This document shows, in pieces, positions 19,292 through 23,515 of a DNA stretch of 64,000 nucleotides. Below the pieces are notes generated by a model that was not told the origin of the DNA, ran no database searches, and saw nothing but the letters and a program-made list of their open reading frames with translations. The DNA is from Haloplanus sp. XH21 (GTDB taxonomy: Archaea > Halobacteriota > Halobacteria > Halobacteriales > Haloferacaceae). The stretch is from the NCBI RefSeq assembly GCF_023276355.1, contig NZ_JALLPL010000001.1, positions 1,302,001 through 1,366,000 of the forward strand, given 5' to 3'. How positions within the stretch are numbered: the first letter of the stretch is position 1; each line of letters starts with the position of its first letter. The position numbers and the translations under genes were made by a program.

Positions 19292-20284
19292 ATGGTCACG
19301 TTTCTCGCCGGCGGGACGGGTACGCCGAAACTGCTCGACGGCGTTCGGGCAGCCTTCGACCCCGCTGCGGTGACCGTCGTCGCCAACACCGGTGACGACG
19401 TGGAACTCGGCGGCCACCTCGTCTGTCCCGACCTCGACACCGTCCTCTTTCAGGAGGGTGACGTGCTCGACCGGGAGACGTGGTGGGGGATCGACGGCGA
19501 CACCACCGCGACCCACGACGAACTCGGTCGGTTGGCGGCCGCCGCCGAGTTGGCATCCGGGCCGCGCTATCTCCCCGCCGACCGGCAGACTGCGGGCCGG
19601 CGACTCGCCCGCTGGCGGCGGTTCTCGGGCGTCGCGGAGTTCATGGAAATCGGCGATCGCGACCGGGCGGTCCATCTCACGCGCACCAGCCTCATCGACG
19701 AGGGACACACGCTCACCGAGGTCACGCGAACCCTCGCCGACGCCTTCGGCCTCGACGTGACGCTGCTCCCCATGAGCGACGATCCCGTGGCGACCATCGT
19801 CCACACCGACGCCGGGATGATGCATTTCCAGGAGTACTGGGTCGCGCGCCGCGCGGAACCGGCCGTCGAGGACGTGGAGTTCCGCGGCGCCGCGACCGCC
19901 GAGGCGACGCCCGCCGTCCGCGACGCGCTCGACGATCCGGTGGTGATCGGCCCCTCGAACCCCGTCACCAGTATCGGCCCCATCCGCGCCCTCGACGGCG
20001 TCGACGCCGCGCTCGACGACACGCCCGTCGTCGCCGTCTCGCCCTTCGTCGAGGACCGGGTGTTCTCCGGCCCGGCCGCCGACCTCATGCGTGGCGTCGG
20101 CTGGGACCCCTCGACCGCTGGCGTCGCCGACGCCTTTCCCTTCGTCGACGCGTTCGTCCTCGACGACGCGGACGACACCGACCTCGACCGACCCGTGATC
20201 CGTACCGACACGCGGATCGACGATCCCGCGGACGCCGAACGCGTCGTGGACGCCGTCGCGGACGCGCTCAGGGAGGTGCAGTGA
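19292..20284 (+). CDS. cofD: 2-phospho-L-lactate transferase CofD
   Basis: A 330-residue CofD, which transfers a phospholactyl (or phosphoenolpyruvyl) group from an activated GMP donor to 7,8-didemethyl-8-hydroxy-5-deazariboflavin in coenzyme F420 synthesis. The N-terminal [19 protein letters not shown] is the family's nucleotide-binding start. [17 protein letters not shown] and [12 protein letters not shown] are further conserved blocks. Length is normal. It is the first gene of a tight four-gene operon; its stop codon shares one base with the ATG of the Dus-like gene. F420 is used by many haloarchaeal oxidoreductases. Confidence 0.96.
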
Positions 20285-21057
20285 TGTTCGCGCTCGCCAG
20301 CCTCAGCGGCGCCTCGGACGCGGCGTGGGCGCGGGCCGGCGCTTCGGAGGCCGACCTCGCCGTTCTCGGCGGCATCGCGCTCGACGCCGACTCCCGGGCG
20401 GCCGCCTGTGACCTCGTCGCTCGTGGTCGCGAGGAGTTCCTCCCCGCCGACCCCTTCGCCTTCGTGGACGACCAACTCGCCGCGCTCGCCGACGCGCCGA
20501 TCCGCCCCGGGATGAACGTCCGGAGCGCGACGGTCGAGCCGATTCGCGAGGCGGCGGCGATCTGCACCGAGCACGACGCCGTCCTCGAAATCAACGCCCA
20601 CTGCCGACAGGACGAACTCCGCGCCGTCGGGTGTGGCGAGACGTTGCTCCGGGACACCGACCGCCTCGCGCGCTACGTCGCCGCCGCGGACGCCGCCGGG
20701 GCGACGGTGAGCGTGAAGGTTCGGGCGGAAGTCGAGGGCGTCGACCTGCCCGCGACGGCGCGCCGCATCGCGGCCGCGGGCGCCGACGCCATCCACGTCG
20801 ACGCGATGGATGCCGAACCCGTCGTCGCTAGCGTCGCCGCCGCGGCCCCCGACTGCTTTCTCCTCGCCAACAACGGCGTCCGTGACCGCAAGACGGCGTG
20901 GGAGTATCTCGCCTACGGTGCCGACGGTGTCAGCGTCGGGCGGCCGAGCGACGACCCGGATGTCCGCCGGCGCGTCGCCCGAGCGGTCAAGGGGTGGAAG
21001 CGTCGTCGCGCCGCGGACGATCCGTCGCCCCGTCTCGGCGCGGAGGTGTCGGGATGA
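20284..21057 (+). CDS. Dihydrouridine synthase-like TIM-barrel protein
   Basis: A 257-residue TIM-barrel protein resembling archaeal Dus-like/MJ0144-type proteins. Visible are EINAHCRQDELRAVGCGETL (where tRNA-dihydrouridine synthases have the catalytic Cys region), VSVKVRAEV, GADAIHVDAMD and the phosphate/FMN-binding LANNGVRDRKTAWEYLAYGADGVSVGR. It is shorter than true Dus enzymes and lacks their C-terminal tRNA-binding domain. Reading begins at the ATG that overlaps the cofD stop. Its place among cofD, a CitG-like gene and DUF447 suggests a cofactor-related flavin enzyme and not a tRNA enzyme, but the reaction is unknown. Confidence 0.75.
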   Translation: MFALASLSGASDAAWARAGASEADLAVLGGIALDADSRAAACDLVARGREEFLPADPFAFVDDQLAALADAPIRPGMNVRSATVEPIREAAAICTEHDAVLEINAHCRQDELRAVGCGETLLRDTDRLARYVAAADAAGATVSVKVRAEVEGVDLPATARRIAAAGADAIHVDAMDAEPVVASVAAAAPDCFLLANNGVRDRKTAWEYLAYGADGVSVGRPSDDPDVRRRVARAVKGWKRRRAADDPSPRLGAEVSG

Positions 21058-21905
21058 CACACCCCCGTCCCGACATGACGCCGACCGATCACGCCGAACT
21101 CGCTCTGTTGCTAGAAGTCGCGAGTACGCCGAAACCCGGGAATGTGGATCGCACGCGCGACCACGACGACCTCCGGTTCGAGCATTTCCTCGCGGGCGCC
21201 GTGGGCTCCCGGCCCGGCCTCGCTGCCGCCGAGAGCGACGTGGCGATCGGCGACGCCTTCGATCGCGCGGTCGACGGCATGAGTCACCAGGAGGGCGGCA
21301 ACACCCAGTTCGGCTGTCTGCTCCTGCTCGTGCCGCTGGTGCGAACAGCCGCGCGCGGCGATCTCTCCCCCGAAGGCGTCACCAGCGTCGTCGAGTCGAC
21401 GACCGTCGACGACGCCGCGGGGTTCTACCGCGCGTTCGAACACGTCGATGTCGCGGTGGACGACCCGCCCGCGGAGGCCGACGCGCTCGATGTCCGGCGG
21501 GGGGCAGACGCCATCCCAGCGCTCCGCGAGCAGGGGGTGACCCTCGCCGACGTGATGCATCTGAGCGCCGACCGCGACGGCAACGCCCGCGAATGGACGA
21601 CCGGCTTCGAGCGGACGTTCGCCGCTGCGGAGCGCATCGCCGCCGACGAGGGGCCGATCACCGACCGCCTGGCGCGCATCTTCCTCGACCTGCTGGCCGA
21701 ACGGCCGGACACGCTCGTCGCGGTCGACCACGGAATGGAGCGCGCCCGAGAGGTGAGCCGACAGGCTGAGGCGGTCCGGGGTGACCTCGCCGCCGCCGAG
21801 GACCTGGCCGAGAAGTTCCACGAGGCTGGCATCAATCCCGGGACGACTGCCGACCTCACTGCCGCGGCGGCGTTCATTGCGCTCGAACGGGGGGTGCGGG
21901 TGTGA
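21054..21905 (+). CDS. Triphosphoribosyl-dephospho-CoA synthase-like (CitG family) protein
   Basis: A 283-residue member of the CitG/MdcB family. The diagnostic motifs are VASTPKPGNVDRTRDHDDLR near the N-terminus, then MSHQEGGNTQFGCLLLLVPL and LHS-like VMHLSADRD; the C-terminus has GINPGTTADLTAAAAF. CitG joins ATP and dephospho-CoA, but no citrate lyase or malonate decarboxylase genes are nearby, so the archaeal enzyme probably has another nucleotide-linked substrate. It overlaps both neighbours by four bases (ATGA/GTGA). Relatives occur in the tetrahydromethanopterin gene sets of methanogens and methylotrophs. Confidence 0.85.
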   Translation: MTHPRPDMTPTDHAELALLLEVASTPKPGNVDRTRDHDDLRFEHFLAGAVGSRPGLAAAESDVAIGDAFDRAVDGMSHQEGGNTQFGCLLLLVPLVRTAARGDLSPEGVTSVVESTTVDDAAGFYRAFEHVDVAVDDPPAEADALDVRRGADAIPALREQGVTLADVMHLSADRDGNAREWTTGFERTFAAAERIAADEGPITDRLARIFLDLLAERPDTLVAVDHGMERAREVSRQAEAVRGDLAAAEDLAEKFHEAGINPGTTADLTAAAAFIALERGVRV

Positions 21906-22513
21906 ACGACGATGACGCCGGCTGGCCGGTCGACCTCCGCGGCGTCACCGAGTCCGTAGTGGCGACGCTCGGTCCCAACGAGCGCTGGAACCAGGCGGCA
22001 CTCGGGCTTCACGCGCCGGATGACCCCGCGGATCCCGTGACGGCGGTGACGTGGGGGCGCACCCGGACGCGAGGAAACTTCGAGCGGCGTGGTCGGGGCG
22101 TCGTCCAGTTCGTGACCGACCCGCGGGAGTTCGTCGACGCCGCGCTCGACGTGACCGAAACTGACGACCCCGTCCGCGACGGCGCGGCCGCGTGGGTCGA
22201 GGTGCGCGCCGAGCGCGTGGCCGACGGCGAGGAGTCAGGGACGGGGTGGGTGCGCTGGGCGCTCACGCCGGAATCGGCGACGGTCCGCGAGCGGACGGTA
22301 CCGACCATCAACCGCGGCTTCTACGCCGTCATCGACGCGACCGTCGCGGCCTCTCGGCTCGACGTCCCCGCCTACGACACCGACGCCCTGCTGGATCGCC
22401 TCGAATACTTCGCGGAGACCGTGGCGCGATGTGGTGGACCCCCGGAACGGGAGGCCTTCGCCCGCATCGACGAGTTGACCGGTTGGCGGGAGCGACGGAA
22501 CGACTCGCGGTAG
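21902..22513 (+). CDS. DUF447 family flavin-binding-like protein
   Basis: A 203-residue DUF447 protein, starting at GTG 21902 that overlaps the previous stop. The family's split-barrel (FMN-binding-like) start is seen in ESVVATLGPNERWNQAALGL and VTWGRTRTRGNFERRGRGVVQF. NRGFYAVIDATVAASRLDVP and the helical DALLDRLEYFAETVARCGGP end follow. Solved members of the family bind FMN, but no reaction is established. It is the last gene of the cofD operon, so it may act on a deazaflavin or pterin-like cofactor. This is an inference from context. Confidence 0.85.
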   Translation: MNDDDAGWPVDLRGVTESVVATLGPNERWNQAALGLHAPDDPADPVTAVTWGRTRTRGNFERRGRGVVQFVTDPREFVDAALDVTETDDPVRDGAAAWVEVRAERVADGEESGTGWVRWALTPESATVRERTVPTINRGFYAVIDATVAASRLDVPAYDTDALLDRLEYFAETVARCGGPPEREAFARIDELTGWRERRNDSR

Positions 22514-22553: not shown

Positions 22554-22569
22554 TTTAGGCCAGCCTAAA
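22554..22569. promoter_or_regulatory. DtxR/iron-type operator before the FAD protein
   Basis: The palindrome TTTAGGCCAGCCTAAA is perfect except for the central two bases. It ends five bases before the ATG at 22574, over the expected transcription start, so binding of a metal-dependent DtxR/SirR/Idr-type repressor would block transcription. The same motif precedes the next gene. Confidence 0.8.
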
Positions 22570-23495: not shown

Positions 23496-23515
23496 TTTTT
23501 AGGCGAGCCTAAAAA
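23496..23515. promoter_or_regulatory. DtxR/iron-type operator before the substrate-binding protein
   Basis: A 20-base palindrome TTTTTAGGCGAGCCTAAAAA with a central GA spacer. It lies directly between TATA box and start codon and has the same core (TTAGGC-NN-GCCTAA) as the site at 22554. This is the textbook position for an iron-dependent repressor. Confidence 0.85.

Follow-up and report, generated by a model that had tools for sequence, protein, structure and literature searches.

In methanogens, beta-RFAP synthase catalyses the first committed step to tetrahydromethanopterin (H4MPT); after this step and attachment of the pterin, the riboside is converted to a 1-deoxyribitol and an alpha-ribosyl 5-phosphate is added. 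Other enzymes of the pathway include a DHPS-like protein (TIGR00284), dihydromethanopterin reductase (DmrX) and MptN. About seven enzymes of methanopterin-type biosynthesis are still unknown (PMC3087415). For haloarchaea, the function of mch and mer, which survive from a methanogenic ancestor, has been stated to be unclear (PMC7599335), and an annotation review has assigned both genes to folate (PMC8305020). Here we describe an operon of four overlapping genes in Haloplanus sp. XH21, encoding CofD, a Dus-like flavoenzyme, a CitG-like protein and a DUF447 protein, within a window of 64,000 nucleotides (positions 1,302,001 to 1,366,000 of contig NZ_JALLPL010000001.1). The likeness to H4MPT biosynthesis is that RFAP synthase, CitG-like and DUF447 genes occur together, with physical linkage, in genomes of the methanogen side and of bacteria, whereas haloarchaea are without methanogenesis enzymes, have folate, and carry an RFAP synthase that belongs to a divergent clade and is unlinked to the operon. 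On balance, we favour the reading that a methanopterin-type one-carbon (C1) carrier, used by haloarchaea for the Mer step alongside folate, is the product of CitG, DUF447 and RFAP synthase.

This reading draws on the distribution of the genes across 59 genomes of Halobacteria (the genome of the window being G000), searched with one family at a time. CitG and DUF447 were each detected in 56 of the 59. RFAP synthase (TIGR00144) occurred in the same 56 genomes and in none of the three without CitG-DUF447 (0/3), and Mer, the F420-dependent methylene-H4MPT reductase (TIGR03555), gave one match of 276-334 bits in each of these 56. The genomes without CitG, DUF447, RFAP synthase and Mer are exactly G001 and G007, from one genus, and G018, from another; the Mer search returned no match in the first two and only a 133-bit paralogue in G018. 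This pattern does not reflect general gene loss, because CofD, Mch and a PF00809 protein of folate synthesis are retained in these three genomes, as in all others (59/59 each). A cofD tree placed G018 beside G023, which carries CitG-DUF447 (support 98/96), and G001 with G007 in a separate clade; there were therefore at least two separate loss events, and a naive probability calculated over the 59 genomes would overstate the evidence from co-loss. At the G018 and G007 loci solely CitG-DUF447 is missing, and both cofD-Dus and the genes that follow are still in place. In the genome of the window, RFAP synthase (C1:330985-331935) and Mer (C1:187149-188093) are both distant from the operon (approximately C1:1321295-1324500). 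The preliminary description had connected CitG and DUF447 with methanopterin genes and had asked for phylogenetic profiling; the profiles uphold this connection, as both families co-occur with RFAP synthase and Mer, the two unlinked genes that carry the argument and that the description had missed.

Two other candidates for the co-lost set were ruled out, namely Mch, which is universal (59/59), and further pterin genes sought through PF00809, a search that gave DHPS-type genes in all 59 genomes and no co-loss. Neighbourhoods of RFAP synthase were checked for more partners, and only KaiC-like, TFS, IlvD and other unrelated genes recurred in them. The cofE gene overlaps or adjoins mer in four of five loci. 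By coordinates, there is often a second pterin-binding gene, of DHPS type, a few kb away from a Mer-like paralogue of the luciferase family (e.g. L205, G018:C3), and in this G018 locus a gene that appears MptE-like by eye stands between the two.

The co-loss could be incidental if G001, G007 and G018 were small or anaerobic lineages shedding methionine and other anabolic genes in parallel. Genome sizes (2.1-2.2 Mb for G007 and G001; 2.4 Mb for G018 against 3.0-3.2 Mb in its genus) and the resemblance of G007 to the anaerobe Halodesulfurarchaeum (PMC5437934) would suit such an explanation. We consider it quite unlikely, however, as four families match exactly across three unlinked places and two separate lineages, two genes have been precisely excised from a retained operon, CofD, the Dus-like protein, Mch and PF00809 proteins persist, and a MetE-like methionine synthase domain is still present in G007.

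The operon itself resolves into two pairs of genes. CofD was present in 59/59 Halobacteria and the Dus-like protein in 58/59. Judged from coordinates, every one of the 56 genomes with CitG and DUF447 has the two side by side, and the Dus-like gene adjoins cofD in 57 of its 58 genomes, the exception being G021, where they lie on different contigs; of the 56 genomes with CitG-DUF447, 47 have all four genes on one strand within about 5 kb. The two pairs are separated in G029, G032, G045, G046 and G052; in G004 and G034 they are on opposite strands with about 6 kb between them. Since adjacency within the pairs is near-universal and the pairs are sometimes parted, the units are cofD-Dus and CitG-DUF447, with a linkage between them that is common yet breakable. 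The same adjacency counts indicate that the four-gene arrangement is not due to chance; scattering of the genes in most haloarchaea, which had been named beforehand as evidence against a functional association, was looked for and was not seen. A single unit of Dus-like, CitG and DUF447 genes, as first proposed, had to be rejected, because the profile of the Dus-like gene matches cofD and not CitG/DUF447, and because the gene is kept, its 1-bp overlap with cofD intact, where CitG, DUF447, RFAP synthase and Mer have been lost. The sole haloarchaeon among the 59 without a Dus-like gene, G002 (L040), has cofD followed directly by CitG-DUF447. On a 987-kb plasmid record of Natrinema thermotolerans (CP031304.1 647918-653206; L256), which carries both pairs, an iron transporter gene and a cupin gene lie between cofD-Dus and CitG-DUF447.

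In a phylum-wide sample of 158 genomes, DUF447 was found in 149, CitG in 150 and RFAP synthase in 154. CitG and DUF447 are adjacent, from coordinates, in approximately 126 of the 146 genomes with both; the non-adjacent cases belong mostly to family f13, with two from f28, one from f21 and one genome for which the place was unlisted. The usual gene order in the phylum is Dus-like, CitG, DUF447. In G059 the order is cofD, Dus-like, CitG, DUF447 and dihydromethanopterin reductase (DmrX), with a DHPS-like gene next but one, and this order suggests that the operon form may predate haloarchaea. Dihydromethanopterin reductase directly follows DUF447 in both G175 and G059 (TIGR02700 410.6 bits, cut-off 251), and a DHPS-like gene of TIGR00284 is close by in four CitG-DUF447 loci. 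The control Sulfolobus acidocaldarius has CitG, DUF447 and RFAP synthase, with CofD and Mch absent; modification of a deazaflavin by the trio of Dus-like, CitG and DUF447 proteins, one of two suggestions made earlier, is therefore not indicated. The other suggestion, a pterin cofactor, gains from the position of CitG-like and DUF447 genes beside dihydromethanopterin reductase on the methanogen side and inside bacterial H4MPT/methanofuran islands. Searches of openly available papers turned up nothing relevant on DUF447 with H4MPT or CofD.

Two observations concern RFAP synthase in this wider sample. In several families it is in frame with an N-terminal extension of approximately 190-230 aa (L107, L108, L115, L116 and others; open frames of 509-592 aa), which suggests a fusion. 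Five complete genomes of families f18 and f27 (G108, G180, G137, G145 and G161; L122-L126) keep CitG-DUF447, with canonical RFAP synthase absent; the distant homologue detected in these families (357 aa, 60-80 bits), located about 2 kb from DUF447 in G180, may be an alternative enzyme.

Bacterial loci place the same genes among those of C1 transfer. Cupriavidus oxalaticus, Paraburkholderia caribensis and Rhizobium plasmids carry RFAP synthase, CitG, DUF447, DHPS-like and AfpA-like flavoprotein genes inside about 11 kb, and the Rhizobium locus also encodes, as confirmed with models, Fae, an MfnB-FolB fusion and TIGR03123 ('H4MPT-linked C1 transfer pathway protein'). Using phmmer with queries from the plasmid loci, we examined 53 chromosomal DUF447 loci with full flanks from Burkholderiales and Rhodocyclales. 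Within 10 kb of DUF447, MfnB-like genes were found at all 53 loci, TIGR03123-type genes at 48, FhcB-like at 42, DHPS-like at 33, AfpA-like at 27, CitG at 26 and RFAP synthase at 7, such that linkage to RFAP synthase (7/53) and CitG (26/53) is looser than that to MfnB-like genes. These islands also bear on whether the CitG-like protein is a true triphosphoribosyl-dephospho-CoA synthase serving the prosthetic group of an acyl carrier protein, with the operon a chance neighbourhood. The protein shares Pfam family PF01874 with the CitG/MdcB synthases (214 bits) and matches PDB 3h9p, which is annotated with this function. Its scores of 27.1 and 27.5 bits fall tenfold below the CitG/MdcB equivalog cut-offs (272 and 282), however; it always accompanies DUF447 in haloarchaea (56/56) and occurs in bacterial C1 islands, and its usual partners are absent nearby, no citrate lyase or malonate decarboxylase genes being present in the operon or among its neighbours (a genome-wide search was not made). 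This identity is thus highly improbable.

Several observations weigh against a methanopterin-type carrier. Some concern the haloarchaeal RFAP synthases. These form a single clade with a long stem, close to divergent copies; in some other genomes of the phylum, such copies are all that can be detected. The haloarchaeal protein scores 172.7 bits, under the RFAPS equivalog cut-off (NF040726, 328), although it passes the subfamily model TIGR00144 (168.4 against 113.5 bits) and the RFAP synthase of the Rhizobium C1 island falls under the equivalog cut-off to a similar extent (167.7 bits). In all 13 sampled haloarchaeal sequences Asp19 is replaced by Asn, and the homologue HVO_2628 has been judged non-catalytic for the RFAP synthase reaction (PMC8305020). 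The D19N form of methanogen RFAP synthase MTH0830 is active, with a threefold KM for p-aminobenzoate (PMC6787355); the equivalent of Arg26, like Asp19 a p-aminobenzoate contact, is present in 13/13 sampled proteins and a glycine-rich PRPP loop of GLGSGTQ type in 12/13, with GFGTGT in G002, whose RFAP synthase is the most divergent among haloarchaea (111 bits). RFAP synthase function is plausible from these residues, not proven. Other contrary points lie outside this enzyme. The co-loss is strong in pattern and small in number (about two events). Coupling is looser outside Halobacteria, where G141 has CitG and DUF447 and no RFAP synthase, and where G108, G180 and family f27 show only the distant homologue. 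The haloarchaeal Mer homologue co-occurs perfectly with CitG-DUF447-RFAP synthase, but its 276-334 bits are under the F420_mer equivalog cut-off (348.7) and the literature assumes a folate substrate for it; the reported carrier of haloarchaea is tetrahydrofolate, and H4MPT-specific enzymes are said to be absent from them (PMC8305020). Neither a TIGR00284 DHPS-like gene nor dihydromethanopterin reductase was seen beside the haloarchaeal operon, although the haloarchaeal genomes were not searched for either. Finally, retention of Mch in G001, G007 and G018 means that the carrier is not needed by Mch. Our data thus agree with the folate assignment for Mch, which is kept when the rest is lost, and disagree with it for Mer.

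Another aromatic substrate for the haloarchaeal RFAP synthase is possible, because its nearest solved relative is ForT, the C-ribosyl transferase of formycin synthesis (6yqq, 1.8e-11). The CitG-like, DUF447 and RFAPS-like proteins could then make a small molecule outside C1 metabolism (e.g. a C-riboside or charged halopterin) that cells with Mer happen to require, or that disappears under the same selection. This is a minor possibility, in keeping with the capacity of RFAPS homologues to make other C-ribosides, with the Asn at position 19 and with the absence of Mch from the co-loss. Set against it are the bacterial C1 islands, where the same three genes are accompanied by Fae, MfnB-like, DHPS-like and AfpA-like genes, the location of CitG-DUF447 beside dihydromethanopterin reductase in archaea, and the identity of the fourth co-lost gene, Mer, as a C1-carrier enzyme.

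If a C1 carrier is indeed the product, the cluster would represent two modules that meet at one reaction. The first, cofD with the Dus-like flavoenzyme, would make or mature F420. The second, CitG-like with DUF447 and the unlinked RFAP synthase homologue, would make an H4MPT-type carrier whose pterin is borne on an aminophenyl-ribose/ribitol arm and not on p-aminobenzoyl-glutamate. RFAP synthase would join phosphoribosyl pyrophosphate and p-aminobenzoate, a DHPS-type enzyme would attach the pterin, DUF447 as a flavoprotein may perform a reductive step on the riboside, and the CitG-like protein may draw on a nucleotide donor to add the second ribosyl phosphate in alpha linkage, comparable to the action of CitG on dephospho-CoA. 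By analogy with the H4MPT route, transfer of the second ribosyl unit would most naturally fall to a CitG-type transferase, and the reduction to a flavoprotein like DUF447, but each individual chemical step is a tentative and somewhat doubtful proposal. The haloarchaeal Mer homologue would then reduce the methylene carrier to its methyl form with F420H2, which would account for cofD heading the CitG-DUF447 operon and for the linkage of cofE to mer. The methyl carrier would probably feed methionine synthesis by a split MetE, with folate covering other C1 metabolism. It is possible, on a wider view, that haloarchaea maintain parallel carriers, folate and a methanopterin-type pterin dependent on RFAP synthase, CitG-like and DUF447, the latter being reserved for the methyl branch that depends on F420 and runs through Mer to methionine synthase, inherited from a methanogenic ancestor and discarded only by lineages that gained, or depended on, a folate-type MTHFR.

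One of the three genomes with the co-loss has such a protein. In G007, of which about half of the sequence was read, an MTHFR-family protein (PF02219 48.8 bits), missed by an E. coli MetF query and detected by Pfam, adjoins an apparent FolD. The MTHFR-FolD order is that of HTSR_1746-1747 of Halodesulfurarchaeum (PMC5437934), to which G007 probably belongs on this basis. G007 also has a MetE-like catalytic protein and a corrinoid methyltransferase cluster with RACo; at approximately 1.72-1.78 Mb of G007:C1 (L196 and L198) lie RACo, URO-D-type and B12-binding corrinoid methyltransferase genes, a CdhD-like pterin-binding protein and the MTHFR. Judging from its gene content, a folate-type path to methyl groups is available in G007, where Mer and CitG-DUF447-RFAP synthase are absent. 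For G018, no MTHFR was seen among the sampled sequence. A contig search with the G007 MTHFR as query gave no match.

The Dus-like protein requires separate consideration. Its membership of the MJ0144 family is distant (125 bits, under the TIGR00736 cut-off of 218.7), and the Dus-type residues Cys107, Lys145 and Arg147 are conserved across 29 aligned homologues. Identity as a tRNA dihydrouridine synthase is not supported, as the protein falls under all Dus equivalogs (22.3 bits against 293 for DusB) and, at 257 aa, ends after the barrel without the C-terminal RNA-binding region. On the methanogen side, the gene encodes a Cys-rich 'methanogenesis marker 9' domain in the C-terminal 110 aa (TIGR03277 in L143), seen by eye in other such proteins (L138, L136 and others). 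The haloarchaeal form thus shares the TIM barrel and the Cys, Lys and Arg residues with the MJ0144/marker 9 family but has lost the marker-9 domain, and is tied to cofD and not to CitG-DUF447. The best reading is that this gene belongs with F420 and cofD. A more specific proposal is that it encodes 'CofX', the missing dehydro-F420-0 reductase of archaea, which would reduce the enolpyruvyl group once CofD has acted. Its overlap with cofD, its adjacency to cofD in 57/58 haloarchaea, including those without CitG-DUF447, its flavin-binding TIM-barrel family with Dus-type Cys and Lys and no RNA-binding tail, and the expectation of a separate archaeal reductase by Bashiri et al. (PMC6450877) are all compatible with this role. 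We nevertheless regard it as unlikely, because G002 has CofD and Mer with no Dus-like gene, because later work on archaeal CofC/CofD pairs re-established 2-phospholactate as the likely archaeal substrate, for which no reductase is needed (PMC8764529), and because in methanogens the Dus-like gene adjoins CitG-DUF447 more often than cofD.

The layout of the operon in the window is given in the table; the coordinates, reading frames and four overlapping genes of the preliminary description were all confirmed. The cofD and Dus-like genes overlap by 1 bp (TGATG), and overlaps of 4 bp join the Dus-like gene to CitG and CitG to DUF447. Structural matches to DUF447 include PDB 2iml (2.5e-14), 2ptf, 2nr4 and 3b5m.

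Table. Genes of the cofD-Dus-CitG-DUF447 operon, in window coordinates.
Gene product	Position	Strand	Supporting matches
CofD, 2-phospho-L-lactate transferase (F420 biosynthesis)	19292..20284	+	TIGR01819 equivalog 377.7 bits, cut-off 257
Dus-like TIM-barrel flavoenzyme, MJ0144 family	20284..21057	+	PF01207 27.7 bits; TIGR00736 125 bits
CitG-family (deoxy)nucleotide-ribosyl transferase-like protein; candidate phosphoribosyl/triphosphoribosyl transferase	21054..21905	+	PF01874 214 bits; PDB 3h9p 1.7e-24
DUF447 protein, GTG start; candidate flavin reductase	21902..22513	+	PF04289/PF20766: DUF447_N 62.9 bits, DUF447_C 64.6 bits

Downstream of DUF447, two perfect TTAGGCNNGCCTAA palindromes (22555-22568 and 23499-23512; none expected by chance) stand on either side of an FAD-dependent oxidoreductase gene and ahead of a gene like that of an iron-binding protein. 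We take these palindromes to resemble a DtxR/SirR-type iron box.

The favoured reading assigns DUF447 and archaeal CitG, two families of unknown role, to methanopterin-type biosynthesis. The loss of CitG-DUF447 only together with RFAP synthase and Mer suggests that haloarchaea, thought to use folate only, still make a methanopterin-like methyl carrier. This co-loss offers a concrete and cheap genetic test in Haloferax volcanii, and bears on the transition from methanogen to aerobic halophile.

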